From positions 124,001-188,000 of the forward strand of contig NZ_JAMPKY010000002.1 in the NCBI RefSeq assembly GCF_039962255.1: a stretch of DNA of 64,000 nucleotides, in the 5' to 3' direction. Source of the DNA: Leptolyngbya subtilissima AS-A7. GTDB lineage: Bacteria > Cyanobacteriota > Cyanobacteriia > Phormidesmidales > Phormidesmidaceae. Numbering within the stretch: the stretch's first letter is position 1; each line of letters opens with the position of its first letter. The notes under the pieces were generated by a model that had not been told where the DNA came from, made no database searches, and saw nothing but the letters and a program-made list of their open reading frames with translations. Shown piece by piece: positions 2,951 through 53,570 of the stretch. The position numbers and the translations under genes were made by a program.

Positions 2951-3139
2951 ATGATTGGTCATTCTCAACAAGTACACTGCCCCAACTGTGGACACCTAGC
3001 CGAAAGGCATCACACTTACCCCGACCAGCAGGTGCAAACTCAGTGCGCCGCTTGTGACTACCTCATGATTACCTGCGCCGTCACCGGCAATGTGATTGAA
3101 GCCCACGCACCAGGTATATTCGCCGCTTCAGCTTGCTAG
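2951..3139 (+). CDS. Small zinc-ribbon protein
   Basis: A 62-residue protein with two CxxC pairs, CPNCGHLAERHH near residue 10 and CAACDYL near residue 34, which should bind one zinc ion as a rubredoxin-like knuckle. Similar miniproteins are widespread in cyanobacteria and are sometimes mis-named as PriA fragments. The function is unknown. ATG has ggag about 10 bases upstream. It forms its own short unit, with a terminator-like hairpin in the leader and a strong terminator downstream. Confidence 0.75.
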   Translation: MIGHSQQVHCPNCGHLAERHHTYPDQQVQTQCAACDYLMITCAVTGNVIEAHAPGIFAASAC

Positions 3140-3340: not shown

Positions 3341-4576
3341 ATGGACATGATTTTGCGAAACGGTAAGTTGCCCAGCGGCGAGTCAGTTGATATCGGCCTT
3401 GAAGATGGCCGCATACAGGCAATAGAACCCAATTTGGCCATCTCAGCCGCCCAGGAATTTGCCCTGGGCGGCAGGCTGGTAAGCCCACCCTTCGTAGAAT
3501 CGCATATTCACCTTGACTCGGCACTGACAGCAGGACAGCCCCGCTGGAACCAAAGTGGCACCCTATTTGAGGGCATTGAGATCTGGCACGATCGCAAACA
3601 GTCCCTCACCCTAGAAGATGTTAAAGCGCGGGCGATCGCCACCCTCAAACTCCAGGCCCAGCAGGGAGTGCTCTTTGTGCGCACCCATGCCGACATCAGC
3701 GAAACCAGCCTCACTGCCCTCAAAGCCCTGCTCGAAGTCCGCGACACTGTCAAAGATTGGATCACCGTGCAGGTTGTTGCCTTTCCCCAAGACGGCCTCT
3801 ACGGCAGCCCCGGCAATCTTGAATTAATGGAAGAATCCCTTAAGCTAGGAGCCGACGCCGTCGGTGGCATTCCCCACTACGAAATGACCCGCGAAGACGG
3901 CGTGCAGTCGGTACACCGCATTTTTGAGCTGGCGCAGCGCTACGATCGCCTGATCGACATCCACTGCGACGAAATCGACGACGACCAGTCGCGCTTTTTA
4001 GAAGTAGTCGCCGCCTGCGCCGTGCGCTCGGGCCTTGGGCCACGAGTCACCGCCAGCCACACCACCGCCTTTGCCAGCTACAACAACGCCTACGCCTTCA
4101 AGCTCATGGGTCTGCTGGCGCGATCGCAGATCAATTTCATCGCCAACCCCTTGATCAACATCACCCTCCAGGGCCGCACCGACACCTACCCCAAACGGCG
4201 CGGCGTCACCCGCGTCAAAGAACTCTGGCAGCAGGGCATCAACGTCAGCCTCGGCCACGACTGCGTGCAAGACCCCTGGTACAACCTAGGCACCGGCAAT
4301 ATGCTCGATGTCGCCTCCATGGCCGTCCATGTCTGTCAAATGACCGGCCAGGATGAAATCGCCGCCTGCTATGCCATGATCACCACCAACGGCGCCAAAA
4401 CCCTCGCCCTAAAAAACTCCTACGGCCTCGAAGTCGGCAAACCCGCCAACCTCATCGTTCTCGATGCCGACAGCCCCTACGACGCCATTTGCCGCCGCGC
4501 CACCGCCACTCATGTTTTCGCCCAAGGCAAGCTGCTAGTGCAGACGAAGCCAGCAGAGGTGAAGTGGCATGCGTAG
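3341..4576 (+). CDS. codA: Cytosine deaminase
   Basis: Hydrolyses cytosine to uracil and ammonia in pyrimidine salvage; metal-dependent amidohydrolase, cytoplasmic. The 411 residues track E. coli CodA along their whole length: HIHLD (metal His55 and His57), TAGQPRWNQSGTLFEGIE, VAFPQDGL, HCDEIDDDQSRF (His208, Glu211), TASHTT (His239), NPLINITLQGR and GHDCVQDPW (metal Asp306). The residue matching E. coli Asp314 is Cys307. Monocistronic by context; no permease (codB) next to it. Start at the first ATG; a second ATG two codons later is possible. Confidence 0.94.
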   Translation: MDMILRNGKLPSGESVDIGLEDGRIQAIEPNLAISAAQEFALGGRLVSPPFVESHIHLDSALTAGQPRWNQSGTLFEGIEIWHDRKQSLTLEDVKARAIATLKLQAQQGVLFVRTHADISETSLTALKALLEVRDTVKDWITVQVVAFPQDGLYGSPGNLELMEESLKLGADAVGGIPHYEMTREDGVQSVHRIFELAQRYDRLIDIHCDEIDDDQSRFLEVVAACAVRSGLGPRVTASHTTAFASYNNAYAFKLMGLLARSQINFIANPLINITLQGRTDTYPKRRGVTRVKELWQQGINVSLGHDCVQDPWYNLGTGNMLDVASMAVHVCQMTGQDEIAACYAMITTNGAKTLALKNSYGLEVGKPANLIVLDADSPYDAICRRATATHVFAQGKLLVQTKPAEVKWHA

Positions 4577-4763
4577 GAGGATAAAGTAGCTCTGGATGCC
4601 GTAGTTATGGAGCTAGCCTCGAAACGCTCTCTGATCACTCCATATTTCTAGCGGTGCTCAGGAGGTTTGCGGTATTTCTATAGACCTTTGCGGAATCTAA
4701 CTTTTTTAGCGTGGATAATAGCCGGAGCTATATCATGCTGGTGACGCTTGACGGTTGAAGTAT

Positions 4764-5333
4764 ATGAGATTGCAAGGCTTAGCGGTCGTAGTGCCAATGC
4801 TTGGATTGACTGCTCTTGTAGGATGCACAACCCCAACTTCTAGTCCTAGCCCAGAACCCAAACCAGATTCAACCATCACCCCAGTCTCAGAGCCTACCAG
4901 TAGCTCGCTGTCAGACAGCCTACTGGAAGCTCATAATCTCTATCGTTTTGAAGTTGGAGTGCCACCTCTGGAGTGGTCAGAAAGCCTAGCCAACTCTTCT
5001 CAAGCTTGGGCCGATCGCTTGTCATCTACAAATACCTTTGCGCATAGTGATGGCAATGGATATGGGGAGAATCTGTGGCAGGGTACTGCAGGTGCTTATT
5101 CTTTAGCTGACATGGTGAGGTCTTGGGGAGACGAGCAAGAGTACTTTATTCCAGATGCAGCCTTTCCGAATCTCTCAACAACCGGCAATTGGACGGATGT
5201 GGGTCATTACACCCAGATTGTCTGGAGAGACACCACCGAGGTCGGTTGTGGATTAGCCACGGGCAACGGTCAGGACGTATTGGTATGCCGCTATTCACCT
5301 CCTGGCAATTACCAAGGGCAGAAGCCTTTCTAG
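4764..5333 (+). CDS. CAP/SCP-domain lipoprotein
   Basis: Starts with a lipoprotein signal (hydrophobic stretch ending LVGC, Cys about residue 22), then a Ser/Pro/Thr-rich linker and one CAP domain. CAP signature pieces are visible: LEAHNLYRFEVGVPPLEWSE, FAHSDGNGYGENLW and GHYTQIVWRDTTEVGCG, with the His and Glu pairs that form the CAP cavity. Known of the family: secreted proteins of varied role, in bacteria mostly unknown. A TTG three codons upstream is open, but ATG 4764 gives the cleaner signal peptide. Base composition is less GC-rich than its neighbours. Confidence 0.85.
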   Translation: MRLQGLAVVVPMLGLTALVGCTTPTSSPSPEPKPDSTITPVSEPTSSSLSDSLLEAHNLYRFEVGVPPLEWSESLANSSQAWADRLSSTNTFAHSDGNGYGENLWQGTAGAYSLADMVRSWGDEQEYFIPDAAFPNLSTTGNWTDVGHYTQIVWRDTTEVGCGLATGNGQDVLVCRYSPPGNYQGQKPF

Positions 5334-5450
5334 AGCAAAGGCCTCTCCTGGTGTAATTCTAGCTACGAAATATCCGAGAATTTTGCTTCCTCTCAAGGGC
5401 ATAGAGCTATGCCGTTCTCTGGGGTATATTCTTTTATCCTGATGCGCTAG

Positions 5451-6215
5451 CTAGTGAAAATAAGACGCCCCATTCACATCAAACGTCGCCCCCGTCGCAT
5501 GGGGCGCTAACCCCGCCACCAAAAACACCACCAAATTGGCAATATCCTGCGGCTCCGCCGGTGCCCCCATCGGAATATCCCGCGTCACATACTCCGCCCC
5601 CCGCTCCGCCATCACCTGCTCAATGCGATCGGTACGCACAAAACCCGGCGCGATCGCATAGGCCCGCACCCCATCCGCCGCAAACCCCTTCGCGATCGTA
5701 CGAGTCAACCCGATCACCCCACCCTTCGACGCCGCATAGGCCATAAACTCTGGCCCATCACCCCGAAACGCCGCCCGACTAGCCAAATTAACCAACGTGC
5801 CGCCCCCTTGAGTCTGAAAGTAGCGAATCGCCTCTCGACACAGATCGGCCATAGCCACAAGGTTGACCTGAAGCGTGTCTTGCCAGGCCGTTGCCCACTG
5901 CTCCCACTCAGCCGTAATCGAGGCGGCGGGCATCGTCGCGGCATTGTTAATCACAGCATCCACGCTGCTTCGCCAGGCCAAGGACTGTTCCCACAACACT
6001 AGGGCCGCCCCCGGCACCGCCAAGTCAGCCTGAACCAAGTGAGTGCGCTCGTGCCCTAGGTCAGTGGCGAGCTGTTCAGCCTCGGCCTCACCTTGACTGT
6101 AGTGAAGAATAACTGCCGCTCCAGCATCGTGTAGAGTGCGAGCGATCGCAGACCCAATTCCTCGCGAGGCTCCCGTAACCAACACCGTGCTGCCCTGCAA
6201 ATCAATCAAAGTCAT
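5451..6215 (-). CDS. Short-chain dehydrogenase/reductase (FabG-like)
   Basis: A 254-residue classical SDR. Nucleotide-binding TGASRGIG lies near residue 14, the structural NNA motif near residue 90, and the catalytic Ser/Tyr/Lys in LASRAAF and YAASKGG. Likely an NAD(P)-dependent oxidoreductase acting on an alcohol or ketone. Substrate not deducible; it sits apart from fatty-acid genes, so calling it the biosynthetic FabG is not justified. Transcribed divergently from the hli gene. Confidence 0.85.
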   Translation of the reverse strand: MTLIDLQGSTVLVTGASRGIGSAIARTLHDAGAAVILHYSQGEAEAEQLATDLGHERTHLVQADLAVPGAALVLWEQSLAWRSSVDAVINNAATMPAASITAEWEQWATAWQDTLQVNLVAMADLCREAIRYFQTQGGGTLVNLASRAAFRGDGPEFMAYAASKGGVIGLTRTIAKGFAADGVRAYAIAPGFVRTDRIEQVMAERGAEYVTRDIPMGAPAEPQDIANLVVFLVAGLAPHATGATFDVNGASYFH

Positions 6216-6349
6216 AACCTTTGCCGTTAGTAGTTCAGCGCCCAGAGTTTTGCCGCTGCCCTGCTCTTCGCAACCGGGGACAGGGCAGCTATAGCCAATG
6301 TACAGCGCAGCTTAATTCATCAAAAATGTAAAGAGTATTGCAATATTTG

Positions 6350-6367
6350 TTTACATTGAGTCACAAT
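6350..6367 (+). promoter_or_regulatory. HLR1-like element (candidate RpaB site) of the hli gene
   Basis: TTTACATTGAGTCACAAT fits the HLR1 consensus of two (G/T)TTACA(T/A)(T/A) repeats separated by two bases, with one mismatch in the second repeat. An inverted TTTACAT half-site occurs about 20 bases upstream. It ends 28 bases before the hli start. HLR1 is the known RpaB target in cyanobacterial high-light promoters; binding here is inferred. Confidence 0.6.
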
Positions 6368-6395
6368 CGAGCCACAAAGCAAAGGAGAACAACCT

Positions 6396-6593
6396 ATGAC
6401 CACTAGCGGTTACACCACCGAAGAGGGCGGTCGTCTGAATAACTTTGCCGTTGAACCAAAAGTTTACGTCGATGACAGTCAGCAGTTTGGCTTTAACGAA
6501 TACCCTGAGAAGCTCAATGGTCGTCTAGCGATGCTGGGCTTTGCATCGGCGGTGCTGTTTGAAGCAGCCACAGGCCACGGCATTGTTACTTGA
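6396..6593 (+). CDS. High-light-inducible chlorophyll a/b-binding-like protein (65 aa)
   Basis: One-helix thylakoid protein that binds chlorophyll and carotenoid and dissipates excess energy around photosystem II assembly. The N-terminus carries the GRLNNFAVEPKVYV box shared with the Ssl1498-type family; the C-terminus carries the helix motif EKLNGRLAMLGF followed by a conserved Glu. A strong ribosome site aaaggag (6381-6387) precedes the ATG. An HLR1-like box upstream suggests light-stress control by RpaB. First of two hli genes in tandem. Confidence 0.9.
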   Translation: MTTSGYTTEEGGRLNNFAVEPKVYVDDSQQFGFNEYPEKLNGRLAMLGFASAVLFEAATGHGIVT

Positions 6594-6709
6594 CTAACTC
6601 ATCTATAGCCAAGGCCTTTGCTGAGTTTGGGCTAGCGCTAACGGCCTTAGCGATTAAATTACCCTAATCAAAAAGTCATTGTTTCCATACCCACAATCGA
6701 AAACACCTG

Positions 6710-6728
6710 TGTTACGTTAAGTAACAGG
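6710..6728. promoter_or_regulatory. Palindrome TGTTAC-N5-GTAACAGG upstream of second hli gene
   Basis: A 6+6 palindrome TGTTAC/GTAACA with five-base spacer followed by GG, 43 bases before the 47-residue hli gene. The same arrangement, including GG, occurs at 41972-41990. The GTTAC half resembles an HLR1 repeat. Regulator unknown. Confidence 0.4.
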
Positions 6729-6770
6729 ATATTGATTTTTGGCCCTCTTATCACTTAGGAAATATCCACC

Positions 6771-6914
6771 ATGGAAACCAACCAAACCAAGTTCGGCTTT
6801 GTAGACTTTGCAGAAACCTGGAACGGCCGTCTAGCCATGCTAGGCTTCGTCATTGGTGTAGCTACCGAGTTTCTAACCGGGCAAGGCATTCTGTCCCAAA
6901 TCGGCCTCATGTAA
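6771..6914 (+). CDS. High-light-inducible protein, short form (47 aa)
   Basis: A short gene starting METNQTKFGF. The single helix carries the chlorophyll-binding motif ETWNGRLAMLGF, then Glu33 and TGQGIL, as in minimal HliA/B/C-type proteins. These bind chlorophyll and beta-carotene in thylakoids as dimers or with larger partners such as chlorophyll synthase. The gene has its own 177-base leader with a palindrome and a strong terminator behind it, so it can be transcribed separately from the first hli gene. Confidence 0.88.
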   Translation: METNQTKFGFVDFAETWNGRLAMLGFVIGVATEFLTGQGILSQIGLM

Positions 6915-6959
6915 AGTTTCTACAACCCCATAGGTTAAAAAACTAAATAACAGATGAAA

Positions 6960-6992
6960 GGGGAGGCGCTAGTTTTAGCGCCTCCCCTTCAT
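6960..6992. terminator. Terminator behind the hli genes, between convergent hli and frp
   Basis: Perfect 12-pair stem (6960-6971 with 6976-6987, GGGGAGGCGCTA and complement) with a GTTT loop, followed by TTCATTT on the plus strand. On the minus strand CTTTCATC follows, so it may also stop frp transcripts. Confidence 0.8.
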
Positions 6993-7049
6993 TTATGTAA
7001 TTCCAAACTTGCCAAAATTAAGCAGCCCGTTCTGAATCTGCGAACCGGA

Positions 7050-7357
7050 TTAGAACATGCGGGTGAGGGCAGTAATCTGCGATAGTTTGGCTGGGTCTAG
7101 CCCCTCTAGCTCGTCTAAGCTCAGCCAGCCTTCTTTCACAAAACTCGAAAAGACAAACAGCAGCGCCGACTCGCGATCGTCATATTTGCCGTCGAGTTCG
7201 TGACGGCGCGCGCTAAGAAAGTCGTGGAGTTGCCAAAGGTCATCCATGCTGTTGAGGCTGTTGGCGCGATCGCGCACAACCTGGACTAATCCGTTGATCT
7301 CGCGGCTATAGGCCGTTGCGATCGCTGCCTTAGCAAGTCATTTTCCTCAGATACCAC
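7050..7357 (-). pseudogene. frp: Fluorescence recovery protein (FRP), apparently frameshifted near the start
   Basis: FRP detaches activated OCP from the phycobilisome and speeds its return to the orange form. The FRP core is clear: DLWQLHDFLSARRHELDGKYDDR holds the Trp, His, Asp and Arg matching W50, H53, D54 and R60 of the Synechocystis protein. The best open start is GTG at 7277 (75 residues), but family similarity continues upstream through AKAAIATAYSREINGL to a TGA at 7338-7340 with no start codon. One frame over, GTG at 7357 encodes VSEEND, which would join at one lost C (GACCTT to GACTT, near 7337). So I see either a one-base deletion, a sequencing error, or an N-truncated FRP. Confidence 0.7.
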
Positions 7358-7729
7358 TAGAGTTCACTGGTATGCATTGCAACTTTAAAAAAAGAATCTC
7401 GAGAAAAGATCGTTAAAAATGCCATAACCGCCATCGGCTAAGCCATTACTCAGCCAATGATTTTGTTTAACGTTTTTCTATATTAGAGACATGTTGCAAA
7501 ACTTTGCAATGTTGATTGGACGCTGAGCGAGCCTTAGCCACCGCCCTACACCTACCTTGGCCAGACCCAAAACAATGCTGGCTGCTGGGTCTTCCGTTTC
7601 GGGAGAGACCCAACAGCCAGGAAAGGATACACGGGTAGCCAGCGATGAGCCAGCCTCAAGTGAGCCTAGGTTGAATTAGACCCTCAGGCTGGCGATCGCC
7701 CGGCTAACCCACCCTCTACAACCATCGTC
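7358..7729. other. Non-coding gap between frp and the OCP-CTD gene
   Basis: About 370 bases without a convincing gene. The frp-proximal half is AT-rich and would hold the frp promoter. The other half contains a long hairpin (7578-7620) placed to end the OCP-CTD transcript. Confidence 0.5.
7578..7620 (-). terminator. Hairpin downstream of the OCP-CTD gene
   Basis: Two 15-base arms (7578-7592 and 7606-7620, CTGGCTG-TGGGTCT and complement) with one mismatch and a 13-base loop. On the minus strand it is followed by CATTGTTTTG, compatible with an intrinsic terminator about 110 bases after the extended stop. Confidence 0.5.
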
Positions 7730-8221
7730 CTAGCGAACCAGGTTAAGCAGTTCCTTCGGTGAGGCCAGCAGGTCAATGGCGACAAAGAAAATCTTGCCCT
7801 CGGGGTTGAGCAAAAATCACCAGGCAATATTCATGCCAACGCCAGCGCCAAACCAAGGCGTCTGCACCTTGCCGGTCACCTTGATTTGGGTAAAGCCATC
7901 TTCCGCCTGCTCGGTGACTCCGCGCTCTGGAATCAGCTTGAGATTTTGGCAATCTTCCTGAAAGAACCGAAGAATGCCTTCTTTGCCGGTAATGAGGCGC
8001 TGAAAGGGAAGCTGTAGCGCACCGTCAGGGGTGAAAAGTTCAATCAGCTCGTTGAAGTCGTTGGCATTGAGGTTGTCCATGGAGGCCAGCACGGTAGGGT
8101 TGGTGACCCCCTCAATGGTGACTTGGCTGCGCTTAGCCATATCCTGGGGCGGCGGAACCGGTTCAGAAACGCGGGTGTAGCTGCCCATTTGCTTGGCATC
8201 AAACCCCATGTTGTTTCCCAT
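7730..8221 (-). pseudogene. OCP C-terminal-domain protein (CTDH-like) with in-frame TGA
   Basis: The NTF2-fold carotenoid and FRP-binding domain of orange carotenoid protein. The protein begins at the NTD-CTD linker (MGF...EPVPPPQD) and continues through MDNLNANDFNELIELF, GALQLPFQR, CQNLKLIPERGVTE and VQTPWFG. No N-terminal (HCP) domain precedes it. The reading frame hits TGA at 7817-7819, right after NIAW, where OCP has Arg; the next 29 codons (FLLNPEGKIFFVAIDLL..., TAG at 7730-7732) keep the OCP C-terminus intact in the same frame. One C-to-T change (CGA to TGA) explains it. The residue matching OCP Tyr201 is Ser (TVLASMDN). Known relatives: CTDH proteins, which shuttle carotenoids as dimers. 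Without readthrough it lacks the last beta strand and C-terminal tail. Confidence 0.8.
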
Positions 8222-8348
8222 AGAGATTGCGCTAGGGAAGAGATAGCTTTTATCACTGGGGAGATCTGTGGATTAGATCAGGCTCTGGTTTGGGGCCAAA
8301 ATCCTTAGAATGGAGATGGCCTCTCAATACTTTTGGTAGCTATAGCCC

Positions 8349-8588
8349 ATGGAAACGCTTGCACTTACCCCTCCCAACGTGGAACAGGTTTTGGATGAAC
8401 TGCGCCCATACCTACTGGCCGACGGCGGCAATGTTGAGCTGGTCGAAATCGACGGCCCAGTGGTCAAACTCCGTCTGCAGGGCGCCTGTGGCTCTTGCCC
8501 CAGCTCGGCCATGACGCTGCGCATGGGCATTGAGCGTCGCCTGCGCGAGTTTATTCCTGAAATCGCTGAGATCGAGCAGGTATTTTAG
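8349..8588 (+). CDS. NifU C-terminal-domain (Nfu) iron-sulfur scaffold protein
   Basis: A 79-residue Nfu-type protein with the Fe-S binding CxxC in [18 protein letters not shown]. Known of the family: carries a [4Fe-4S] cluster for delivery to apoproteins such as photosystem I subunits; in cyanobacteria the stand-alone NfuA is essential. Full length for this family. Divergent from the OCP-CTD gene and 74 bases ahead of serS, with which it may be co-transcribed. Confidence 0.92.
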
Positions 8589-8662
8589 GAATGCTGATAT
8601 TCTGATTTATTGGCAAGGAGTTTTTTGTCAAAAAATCAGATTTCAGATTGTAGAGGGCTGCT

Positions 8663-9940
8663 GTGCTAGATCTAAAGCAAATACGAGAAAACCCGGAGCG
8701 GGTGCAGTCTGCTCTGGGTAAGCGGGGCAAGTATGATTTGACCCCGCTGCTAGAGCTAGACCAGCAGCAACGCCAGATCGAAACGGTGCGATCGCAGCTC
8801 CAGGCCCGCGGCAACGAGATCGGCAAGCAGGTCGGTCAGACTATCAAAGCCGGGGCCGCTCCCAACGGTCCAGAAGTCACCGCCCTTAAAGACGAAGGCA
8901 ACCAGGTCAAAACTGAGCTGCAAACCCTGGAACCCCAGGAGCGCGAGATCAAGGCCCAGATCGAGGCCATTCTGCTGGGCTTGCCCAACCTGCCTAGCGA
9001 CACCACCCCCGTCGGTAAAGACGAAACCGAAAATGTCGAAGTGCGCTGCTGGGGCGACGAGTATCTGCCCCAACAGCCCGCCAAGCCCCATTGGGAAATT
9101 GGCGAAACCCTTGGCATTCTTGACTTTAAGCGCGCTGCTGAGAAGATTGCCCAGAGCCGCTTTGTCGTTTTAAAAGGCGCAGGTGCGGCATTGGAACGGG
9201 CGCTAATTTCGTTCATGCTCGATCGCCACACCAAAGCAGGCTACTACGAAGTCATTCCTCCTTACCTAGTAAACTCTGCCGCGCTAACCGCCTCAGGCCA
9301 GCTGCCCAAGTTTGCTGAAGAAAGCTTTCAGTGCCGCAACGATGACCTGTGGCTTACTCCCACCGCCGAGGTGCCCCTCACCAACCTGCACCGTGACGAC
9401 ATCCTTGCTTCTGATCAGCTGCCAATTCACTATTGCGCCTATACTCCCTGCTTTCGTCGCGAGGCCGGCAGCTACGGCAAAGACACGCGCGGGCTAATTC
9501 GTCTTCACCAGTTCAATAAGGTGGAGATGTACAAATTCGTTCACCCGGACACCTCCTTCGACGAGCTAGAGGCGCTGGTGGGCGATGCCGAAGACATTCT
9601 GCAACAGCTCAAGCTGCCTTACCGAGTGCTGGCGCTTTGCACTGGCGATCTGGGTTTCTCCAGCTGCAAAACCTACGACCTCGAAGTGTGGATGCCCTCT
9701 TCCGACAGCTATCGGGAGATTTCTAGCTGCTCGAACTGTCTAGACTTTCAGGCCCGCCGCGCTAATCTGCGCTTCAAGGAAGCTGGGCAAAAAGGCACTC
9801 AGTACGTACACACCCTCAACGGATCTGGCCTAGCCATTGGCCGCACCATGGCCGCCATTCTCGAAAACTACCAGGAGGCCAACGGCTCGGTGCGAGTGCC
9901 TGAGGTGCTGCAACCCTACCTCAACCGCGAGTATCTGTAG
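8663..9940 (+). CDS. serS: Serine--tRNA ligase
   Basis: Charges tRNA(Ser) with serine. Normal 425-residue length: the N-terminal tRNA-binding coiled coil occupies about residues 1-105 ([15 protein letters not shown] onward), followed by the class II core with [10 protein letters not shown], motif 2 in [26 protein letters not shown] and motif 3 in [16 protein letters not shown]. The start is GTG at 8663 with agaggg about 8 bases upstream; the protein start fits the family exactly. Its stop is 4 bases from the convergent membrane protein gene. Confidence 0.97.
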
Positions 9941-9944
9941 ACGC

Positions 9945-10358
9945 CTACAGAGGAAAGCGATAGACGATCGCCCCAGTATCTTTGACATCAAAAGACGCGT
10001 TGAGCACCTGAGCTTTTTGATCGAGGAACGCTTTGGCCTGCTCAACCGGCATCTGCGCGGCGGCAGCAAACTGAATAATGGTGAGGTCTCCCTCTTGGTT
10101 TTGAAGCAGCTGCAAAAACATCTGCTCTTGCTGTAGTGACAGTGATTGGGATGTTTGCTGATTGCTGTGGCGCAGATTCCACGCTAGCCAGGAGCCCAGT
10201 GCCGTGGGAGCGACGCCAAACATGACCAACGCTAAACCAGTCTCGGCCCTGTCTTCCCAATCGTCGTCGGGGCTAACTAGTTGGGTTGTCGCTAGAAGGG
10301 TAATTGATAGGCCAAACAGCAGGCAAGTTCCAGCTAAGGCCTTCTGTAACATCCGCAT
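9945..10358 (-). CDS. Small membrane protein, tandem paralog 1
   Basis: A 137-residue protein of unknown function. Two hydrophobic segments (about residues 8-27 and 43-62) form an N-terminal hairpin, then a Gln-rich probable coiled coil (SLSLQQEQMFLQLLQNQ) and a small C-terminal domain (GDLTIIQFAAAAQMPVEQAKAFLDQKA) that resembles a winged-helix sensor. It ends VYRFPL. The neighbouring gene encodes a protein of the same length and more than half the same residues, and even the DNA around the stop codons is nearly identical. A recent duplication is therefore likely. Confidence 0.75.
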   Translation of the reverse strand: MRMLQKALAGTCLLFGLSITLLATTQLVSPDDDWEDRAETGLALVMFGVAPTALGSWLAWNLRHSNQQTSQSLSLQQEQMFLQLLQNQEGDLTIIQFAAAAQMPVEQAKAFLDQKAQVLNASFDVKDTGAIVYRFPL

Positions 10359-10546: not shown

Positions 10547-10960
10547 CTATAGGGGAAAGCGATAGACTACGGCTCCGTTGTCTAAAACGTCGAACGAGGC
10601 ATTTAGCTGCTGCGCTTTTTCGTCGAGGTAAACTTTGGACTCTTCGAGCGACAGTTGGGTTGCGGTGGCAAACTGAAGCACTGTCAGGTCGCCTTTGTGG
10701 TCTTGAAGGAGCTGGAGAAACCGCTGCTCTTGCTGATCGGCGAGGGTTTCCAGCGATCGCTCGTGTTGCTGGCGCAAGTTCCAGATCAGCCAGGCACCTA
10801 GAGCGGTCGGTGGCAGCCCAACAACCAGCAGCGCCGCGACAGAGTCCGCTCGATCCTCAGCGTCATTGGTAGGGTTAAGGATCTCAGCTGTTAACGCAAG
10901 CACAATGAACAGCCCAAGAGATAGACAAACCCCAGCCAACACCTTTTGTAGCAGCCTCAT
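10547..10960 (-). CDS. Small membrane protein, tandem paralog 2
   Basis: Sister of the gene at 9945-10358: the same 137 residues, membrane hairpin, coiled coil (ADQQEQRFLQLLQDHKGDL) and terminal VYRFPL. Most differences are in the first membrane segment and the loop, while the C-terminal wing-like domain is best kept. Transcribed in the same direction with a 190-base gap, so probably from its own promoter. Function unknown; a membrane-tethered regulator is only a guess from the domain order. Confidence 0.75.
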   Translation of the reverse strand: MRLLQKVLAGVCLSLGLFIVLALTAEILNPTNDAEDRADSVAALLVVGLPPTALGAWLIWNLRQQHERSLETLADQQEQRFLQLLQDHKGDLTVLQFATATQLSLEESKVYLDEKAQQLNASFDVLDNGAVVYRFPL

Positions 10961-51002: not shown

Positions 51003-51160
51003 AGGGGAATGGGGATAGATGGGTTAGGGAGTGGATGGGCAGGGAATGAATGGGTAGAGATAGGGCATTCGAACTGCTACTGCTTCGTTCATCATTTATT
51101 TAACCCACCCATCCACCCATCTACCCATCTACCCATCCACTTACCTACCCATCTACCCCT
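51003..51160. repeat. Heptad repeat block with inverted arms between potB and potD
   Basis: G-rich units (GATGGGTTAGGGAGTGGATGGGCAGGG) at 51015-51062 and C-rich units (ACCCACCCATCCACCCATCTACCC, 51109-51160) about 45 bases apart. The second arm ends exactly at the potD stop. Confidence 0.75.
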
Positions 51161-52350
51161 CAAGCGCTGGTCACTTCAGTCCAAAATTGGTCAAAGAGAT
51201 CGGTGCTGGCGGTATTGACAGCCACAATGCCTTCGCTCTTAGCCAAAATCTCATCGGAGGGGTACAGGTCAGCGTTGTTTTGAATTTCGGCAGGCAGCAG
51301 GTCAAAGGCAGCCTGGTTAGCGGTGGCAAAGAACAAGCGCTCCACGGCGGCACTGGCCACCTCTGGCTCCAGCAGGAAGTTAATCCACTGGTAGGCGGCA
51401 TCAACGTTGGGAGCGGTGGCGGGGATAGCCAGGGTATCGGTCCACAGCGACGCCCCGCTGGCGGGAATGATGTACTGCATACGGTCATCTTCGAGGGTGA
51501 GGGCGATCGCATCGCTGGAGTAGGCCATCGACACACTCAGGTCACCACTGAGCAACTCATTCTCAAAGCCTGTGGTCTTAAAGGCAGCGATATGGGGTCT
51601 CAGCTCTAGCAGACGGTTGTAAGCCGCTTCAATCTCCGCTAGATTGTTGGAGTTGTAGGAGTAGCCCAGCGATTTGAGGGTGGCTCCTAGGGTTTCGCGC
51701 ATATCGTCCAACATGGTGATGCGGCGGGAGAGCTTGGCCTGGTTATCCCAAAGAAAGTCCCAGTCGGTGGGTTCGCCGGGGGAGGCCTCACGGTTGTAGA
51801 GCAGACCTGTGGTGCCCCAGCAGAAAGGCACACTGTGAGCGTTGTTGGGGTCGTAGGCGGGGTTGCTCCACTGTGCTCTAAGGTTTTCTAATCCGGTGAG
51901 GCGACTTTGATCGAGTTCGGTGAGCAGGTCTAGCTCCAGCATTTCCGACACCATGTAGTCGGAGGGATAGATGATGCTGTAGGCGTCGCCGCCCCCCGCT
52001 TGCAGGCGGGTGAGCATGACCTCATTAGAATCGTAAATATCGACCACCACCGGAATGCCTGTGCGTTCGGTAAAGGCTTGGGCCAGGCCATCATCGGTGT
52101 AGTTGGCCCAGGTGTAAATGTGCAGAGTGCCGTCGTTTGCGCCCCCGCCCGCCGGTGGCCCCGCCAGGTTTTGGCGACAGTTGGTCGCCGCTAGGCTTGC
52201 CATGACCGCTGCTGACCCCTGCAAAAACCGCCGCCGGCTCACGGCAGAAAGGCGCGAGAAGGAGGGAGTTTGTAGTCGCGTTCCAGGCACAGGCATTCTC
52301 CGGGAGGCTAGGGGGCTAGGAATAGCAGTGGTCGACGCCGACTTTAGCAC
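51160..52350 (-). CDS. potD: Spermidine/putrescine-binding protein PotD
   Basis: Periplasmic family 1 binding protein. N-terminal twin-arginine signal RRRFLQGSAAVMASLAATNC suggests Tat export and possible lipid attachment at the Cys. Body: LHIYTWANYTDDGLAQAFTERTGIPV, SIIYPSDYMVSEMLELDLL, PFCWGTTGLLYNR and SMAYSSDAIALT. The start may be ATG 52350 or 52296; the Tat motif is kept either way. Confidence 0.92.
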   Translation of the reverse strand: MLKSASTTAIPSPLASRRMPVPGTRLQTPSFSRLSAVSRRRFLQGSAAVMASLAATNCRQNLAGPPAGGGANDGTLHIYTWANYTDDGLAQAFTERTGIPVVVDIYDSNEVMLTRLQAGGGDAYSIIYPSDYMVSEMLELDLLTELDQSRLTGLENLRAQWSNPAYDPNNAHSVPFCWGTTGLLYNREASPGEPTDWDFLWDNQAKLSRRITMLDDMRETLGATLKSLGYSYNSNNLAEIEAAYNRLLELRPHIAAFKTTGFENELLSGDLSVSMAYSSDAIALTLEDDRMQYIIPASGASLWTDTLAIPATAPNVDAAYQWINFLLEPEVASAAVERLFFATANQAAFDLLPAEIQNNADLYPSDEILAKSEGIVAVNTASTDLFDQFWTEVTSA

Positions 52351-52445
52351 TCAGAGGGAGCGACCTTATCTTTAGCTTCTAAGTATATGGCGATCAGCCC
52401 GGGGTAACGCGCGCGCTGCGATCGCCTGCCTAGATCAACATGTCC

Positions 52446-53570
52446 TCAGGCTGGGTCGAGCACTAGGCAATCGTCGGCAGCCCAGTGCACATACACAGCA
52501 GCATCGACGCCCAGCGATTCGGCCCGGTTGGGCTGGCGCACCATCAGGGTCTCGCCTGAGCCCAATCGCACCACGCAGTGCAGGTGCGTACCGAGGTACA
52601 TCAGATGGGTGATGTGTCCCTGGTAGCAGTTGTTGGCGGTGGCCGGCGCGCTGAGACTGAGGTTGATTTTTTCGGGTCGCACGCTCACAACCACGGTCTG
52701 GGCATCGCTGCTGCCGGCCGAGCAGGCCAGCACTCGCAAACCACTGTCAGTGGTGACCTGCACCTGGCTGGGGTAGGTCTGATCGATGCGCCCGGACAGC
52801 AGATTGGTATCGCCAATAAAATCAGCAACAAAGGCGGTGCGAGGACGATCATAGATATCGCTGGGGGTGCCGATTTGCTCGATCTGGCCATTGTTCATCA
52901 CGGCGATGCGGTCAGAGAGCGACAGGGCCTCCTCTTGGTCATGGGTGACCATAATAAAGGAAATGCCCAGCTGACGGTGCAGGTTGGCTAGCTCGACCTG
53001 CATCTGCTTGCGCAGCTTTTGATCTAAAGCGCCGAGGGGCTCATCGAGCAGCATCACCGCTGGATGGTTAACCAAGGCGCGGGCCAGGGCCACCCGCTGC
53101 TGCTGCCCACCAGAAAGCTGGGCGGGATAACGGGCAGCCATAGATTCCATACGCACCAGGCGCAGGGCTTCGGCAACGCGATCGCGCACTTGGAGCGACC
53201 CCATGCGACGAATTTTGAGGCCAAAGGCAATGTTGTCTTTAACCGTCATATGGTCAAAGAGAGCATAGCTTTGAAAGACAGTATTAACAGGGCGACGGTG
53301 GGCGGGCACCGTGCTCACATTGGCCCCCTGAATCAGGACATCGCCAGCGGTGGGAGTTTCAAAACCTGCGATTAGACGCAGGGTTGTGGTTTTGCCGCAG
53401 CCTGAAGGGCCCAAGATACTAAAGAATTCGCCCTGGTGCACCGTCAGGTCGAGGTCGCGCACGGCTACCTCTGTTCCAAAGGCCTTAACTACCCGCCGCA
53501 ACTCAACATCTGCCTGGGTTGCTGGTGTCGCCGTCACCGCCGCAGAACGCACCGTCTGAGCCATAGCCAT
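52446..53570 (-). CDS. potA: Spermidine/putrescine ABC transporter ATP-binding protein PotA
   Basis: ATPase of the polyamine importer. Walker [11 protein letters not shown]-loop [13 protein letters not shown], signature [15 protein letters not shown], Walker [12 protein letters not shown] and a C-terminal TOBE domain with sensing role ([23 protein letters not shown]). I start at ATG 53570 because AGGAGAC sits just before it; the open frame extends 16 codons further. Promoter-proximal gene of potADBC. Confidence 0.93.

Follow-up and report, generated by a model that had tools for sequence, protein, structure and literature searches.

In Leptolyngbya subtilissima AS-A7, a TGA codon interrupts the reading frame of an OCP C-terminal domain, raising the question of whether the stop is an error, is bypassed, or marks a gene that no longer works. 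The DNA analyzed here (the window) is a 64,000-nucleotide stretch of this genome; the frame lies on the minus strand, from 8221 to 7730, and reads MGNNMGFDAKQ...NIAW-TGA-FLLNPEGKIFFVAIDLLASPKELLNLVR-TAG. The original prediction placed the TGA directly after NIAW and the normal OCP C-terminus in frame behind it, and both statements agree with the reading of the frame, in which 28 sense codons, or 29 codons with the TAG, follow the TGA. Judged from sequence comparison, the locus is very probably an ocp pseudogene within a lost ocp-frp photoprotection module; an apparent recoding puzzle thus turns into one of gene loss. The features are as follows:

8212..8221, minus strand: accidental start ATGGGAAACA, formerly upstream noncoding DNA (alignment, by eye)
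8208..8211, minus strand: deletion junction, with ACAT at both breakpoints in L036 (alignment)
7733..8209, minus strand: ocp remnant, comprising the linker and the C-terminal NTF2-like domain, residues 161 to 319 in L036 numbering (Pfam, PDB, synteny)
7817..7819, minus strand: in-frame TGA replacing Arg, residue 291 of L036 (alignment; same TGA in G010)
7730..7732, minus strand: original ocp stop TAG, frame kept (frame reading and alignment)
7050..7377, minus strand: frp pseudogene (alignment with L036, L037, and L039)
5680..8799, no strand: tract near-identical to G010, with 6 differences (window alignment; the rest is ∼5% diverged)

The TGA codon and the missing front half

The codon at the site of the TGA was compared across 110 homologous rows, which are the loci fetched by then and include some genomes entered twice via two collections. 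It encodes Arg in 108 rows (CGG, 32; CGC, 32; AGA, 26; CGT, 9; CGA, 8; AGG, 1) and is TGA in only two, the window and G010, another species of the genus with its own assembly; given Arg in 108 of 110 rows, the TGA is not a chance observation. The four closest distinct relatives (L036 to L039, namely, Leptolyngbya sp. FACHB-60, Phormidium tenue FACHB-1052, a Leptolyngbya MAG, and a Nodosilinea MAG) all have CGG at this site, so that at least two substitutions lie between CGG and TGA. A single C-to-T change from CGA, as first proposed, is therefore not the whole explanation.

Comparison with the orthologous locus, which had been suggested as a check, was informative: in all four relatives, a full-length OCP of 319 codons, with the codons downstream of the TGA site present, occupies the slot that is flanked by the nifU-like/serS genes on one side and the HLIP/SDR genes on the other (gene order taken from L036). 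Relative to L036, ∼610 bp are missing from the window (about 4386 to 4996 in L036, read by hand from the coordinates of an alignment of the locus that comprised L036, L037, and L039), the exact ends being uncertain owing to the 4-bp repeat ACAT and to upstream divergence. The lost stretch consists of a 128-bp leader and ocp codons 1 to 160, that is, the whole N-terminal domain. Gone with the leader is the likely ribosome-binding site CAGGAAACT, which stands in front of the ATG in L036 to L039; in contrast, no purine-rich stretch was seen by eye directly before the ATG at 8221. The start of the ORF at 8221 is accidental, in DNA that in the relatives lies upstream of the gene and is noncoding.

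Decay of the remnant and of its partner gene

What is left of ocp is recognizable. A Pfam scan of the ORF matched NTF2, the best PDB matches of the remnant are OCPs (E values down to 8e-64), and its identity to the closest relatives, that is, to the C-terminal domain of their intact OCP, is 93 to 94% over 158 residues. The gene order is likewise that of L036 (nifU-like, ocp, frp, HLIP genes). FRP acts on OCP1 (PMC10172135), and the remnant is probably of the OCP1 type, judged from the adjoining frp. Nevertheless, it differs from a functional OCP1 in several respects. An OCP1 combines Carot_N (PF09150) with NTF2 (PF02136), whereas here codons 1 to 160 are deleted, together with the native leader, and Carot_N has no Pfam match in the ORF. 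The C-terminal domain is incomplete, the TGA having cost it the Arg and all 28 residues that follow. The frp gene nearby, which has 109 codons and is intact in L036, is broken by a change of codon 7 from CAG to TAG (7357-7359) and by frameshifting deletions of 1 bp each at 7352/7353 and 7336/7337; a TGA at 7338-7340 is present in the window genome and absent from G010. With both genes hit, the whole ocp-frp module is disabled.

The remnant also appears to have evolved under relaxed constraint. Five missense changes polarize to the window branch (A179P, Y203S, A214E, P227L, and P232L in L036 numbering), whereas a sixth difference, D213N, polarizes to the sisters' side. A site was assigned to the window branch when the four sisters share one state that is also found in both outgroups (L040 and L042); for changes private to one of the four sisters, the rule differed slightly, the remaining three having to match each other and the two outgroups. 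On this basis, 6 nonsynonymous and 3 synonymous changes fall on the window branch, and the sisters have 3 nonsynonymous and 19 synonymous private changes (Fisher P = 0.007; with the stop site excluded, 5:3 against 3:19, P = 0.016), counts that are small, that on the window branch also cover the time before the deletion, and that leave out 2 ambiguous synonymous sites as well as 1 nonsynonymous and 3 synonymous sites on the sisters' side. Three of the changed remnant codons, 42 (Tyr to Ser), 66 (Pro to Leu), and 71 (Pro to Leu), each correspond to a position at which 92 of 92 distinct homologs have the same residue; positions 18 and 53 vary within the family, with Glu at 53 in 7 of the 92. Codon 42 aligns with Tyr201 of the Synechocystis OCP (PDB chain 7sc9), and Trp288 is retained as the last codon before the TGA. 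In Synechocystis numbering, the keto carotenoid accepts hydrogen bonds from Tyr201 and Trp288, and one of these two donors is reported to be enough for photoactivity (PMC9909426), so that losing Tyr201 would not by itself have to inactivate an intact OCP. The locus thus combines disabling lesions, evident from comparison with the intact orthologs that occupy this slot in relatives, with a raised proportion of nonsynonymous changes, as expected of a pseudogene. The original prediction took the intact downstream codons as a sign of a very recent loss, and they are indeed still well preserved; together with the high identity, they indicate that decay is recent or that constraint was lost only late. 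The missing front of the gene, the broken frp, and the lost invariant residues had escaped it.

Comparison with the relatives shows the following. A deletion of ∼610 bp, whose ends in L036 bear the 4-bp repeat ACAT, removed the leader and the N-terminal effector domain, leaving the linker and the C-terminal domain; the latter carries the TGA as well as missense changes at residues that are otherwise invariant. It is likely, though not proved, that the deletion came before the TGA. The neighboring frp was hit by a nonsense change and two frameshifts, and a tract of ∼3.1 kb carrying these lesions was probably exchanged by recombination between two species. Deletion, nonsense, and frameshift lesions commonly pile up in bacterial pseudogenes once a function is no longer needed, and partner genes decay together. 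The locus in the window is of this usual kind; less common are the graded series within the genus and the probable exchange of a dead haplotype, both described below.

Alternative readings of the open frame

The stop had originally been attributed to a recent nonsense mutation, a sequencing error, or readthrough. Only the nonsense change in the C-terminal domain has stood. That a sequencing or assembly error disrupts an otherwise working gene might be supposed from the fact that a single codon splits the two halves of the frame, but such an error has next to no probability: the same TGA is found in the separately assembled G010, which is a different species and only 95.2% identical over the window, and the TGA is not the sole lesion, given the missing N-terminal domain and the broken frp. 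Readthrough or recoding of the TGA into a functional C-terminal-domain protein would agree with the 28 intact and well-conserved codons past the stop. However, it would gain little, with the N-terminal domain and leader deleted, three invariant residues lost (Tyr201 and two prolines), and frp broken, while the accidental ATG has no purine-rich site before it and TGA works as a normal stop in this DNA, where it closes 9 of the 43 long ORFs in a mechanical list for the window. Readthrough is accordingly regarded as extremely improbable. The TGA is genuine and can be explained without recoding, as one of several lesions that the dead OCP-FRP module has suffered.

The truncated ORF up to the TGA is open over 134 codons and could be misannotated as a working OCP or CTDH. 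Its likeness to a CTDH/CCP lies in being a lone NTF2-like OCP-CTD reading frame, and since OCP is thought to be a fusion of an HCP and a CTDH (PMC10172135, PMC7512017), the reverse, fission of an OCP into a new single-domain CTDH/CCP kept for carotenoid transport, is conceivable. CTDH/CCP proteins are described as binding and transferring carotenoids and as having Phe or Cys at position 105 (PMC7512017). Yet the ORF is the product of a deletion within an OCP, without visible start signals, rather than an intact lone domain with start signals of its own: it ends exactly at Trp288, with the last 28 residues absent, the Tyr that binds the keto group is lost, and the ratio of nonsynonymous to synonymous changes is raised. 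A model of the sister OCP in its intact form puts position 291, and with it the stop, within a strand (286-294, followed by a second strand at 299-307 and a helix spanning 311-318), although this fold, built from a 6-row alignment, is poor (mean pLDDT, 44.4) and its secondary structure serves as a hint only. Moreover, the genome already has a separate CTDH-like gene, an open frame of 137 codons and the one other CTD homolog found. Fission into a new CTDH is thus very unlikely, and the pseudogene remains the preferred reading.

Other OCP-related genes were sought in the remainder of the genome (total, 5.66 Mb over 18 contigs; listed completeness, 100%). Its four Carot_N matches all lie at other loci, in open frames of 214, 185, 167, and 187 codons that are too short for an OCP, and neither the Carot_N nor the CTD homolog search found an intact OCP elsewhere in the assembly, and rescue by a second copy was set aside. 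A megablast search of 7730-8221 against a plasmid collection gave no match. Phycobilisome quenching by OCP-FRP, the best-studied cyanobacterial quenching system, is probably absent from this organism. A tie between loss of OCP and loss of the antenna was rejected, as nine phycobilisome-linker matches are present. Against the PDB, two of the four putative HCPs were compared, one being closest to 5fcx and the other to 8qx5; HCP4 and HCP5 are reported to quench phycobilisomes in vitro (PMC12059629). OCP genes were found in 90% of 690 genomes (PMC12059629), so that genomes without OCP are already known. Among the literature matches listed, titles and abstract openings contained no description of an ocp-frp pseudogene, and passages of PMC12587747 treat several OCP copies and not loss. 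Elsewhere in the window, the minus strand carries two adjacent ORFs (9945-10358 and 10547-10960) of 137 codons each that are related to one another; neither has a Pfam match at E 0.001, and L037 is among the relatives in which this DNA is conserved.

Graded loss across the genus and probable exchange between species

The interest of the locus lies in the repeated, graded loss of OCP-FRP in one genus and not in the stop codon. The genus was sampled with 26 genomes (G000 to G025, G000 being the window genome), which form a natural series: a full-length OCP with an intact FRP frame in 18, a broken OCP with an intact FRP in one (G006), both broken in two (G000 and G010), and neither found in five (G014, G016, G018, G021, and G025). 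In G016 and G025, the neighboring genes are in order, with only ∼180 bp between HLIP1 and nifU (L131 1800-2010 and L132 5484-5685), and tblastn at E 1e-4 found no match to ocp or frp in the stretches fetched. For G014, G018, and G021, the last of which is 87% complete, only nifU was matched in the stretches fetched, and the slot itself lay outside the check.

The interruption in G006 is a separate loss. In its ocp, codon 106 is followed by a 107-bp MITE-like element (L120 5998-6104, contig C169) whose inverted ends are 19 nt long and which has three other matches in the G006 genome, partial or diverged. The remainder of ocp was not found at this locus; frp, behind the element, is intact. In a more distant relative, G040 (L121, C3:163500-167500), the OCP C-terminal domain is frameshifted and the normal C-terminus continues in another frame, which may reflect an error or a pseudogene.

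In a midpoint-rooted tree of rpoB DNA, G000 and G010 group together with a support of 100. The tree implies six state changes, whether these are counted by Fitch parsimony or by starting from an intact root and allowing nothing but losses, with the Fitch root state ambiguous, several nodes weak, and a single gene not amounting to a species tree. No clustering of the losses on this tree beyond chance was detected (478 of 2,000 label shuffles gave six or fewer changes). At least one Carot_N match is present in all 26 genomes, including those without OCP, and replacement of OCP by HCPs and a CTDH therefore becomes testable. It is a tentative and rather doubtful idea that loss of OCP-FRP has been favored in part of the genus, through about six events in the 26 genomes, with ocp dying before frp and the dead haplotype spreading by homologous recombination, and with HCP-type quenchers and a CTD homolog perhaps taking over.

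The two doubly broken loci are unusually alike. Over the window, G000 and G010 differ at 3,021 of 63,117 aligned positions (4.8%, with gaps in G010 counted), compared with only the 6 differences within the ∼3.1-kb tract at 5680-8799, which takes in intergenic DNA as well as the pseudogenes; serS, just past it, is strongly diverged. Shared within the tract are the ∼610-bp deletion, the TGA, and three frp lesions (the TAG at codon 7 and both 1-bp deletions). The broken haplotype probably recombined recently between the two species, or both took it from a third source. A second recent recombination tract is seen at 51153-53192, where 2,040 bp show 0 differences to G010; its genes, named by eye, are presumably ABC-transporter genes. 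The existence of this second identical tract weakens the claim that the dead allele was favored. Finally, the segment at 4568-5450 of the window has no match in the G010 counterpart and contains a 192-codon ORF (4755-5333), which we take to encode a CAP/SCP-type secreted protein.
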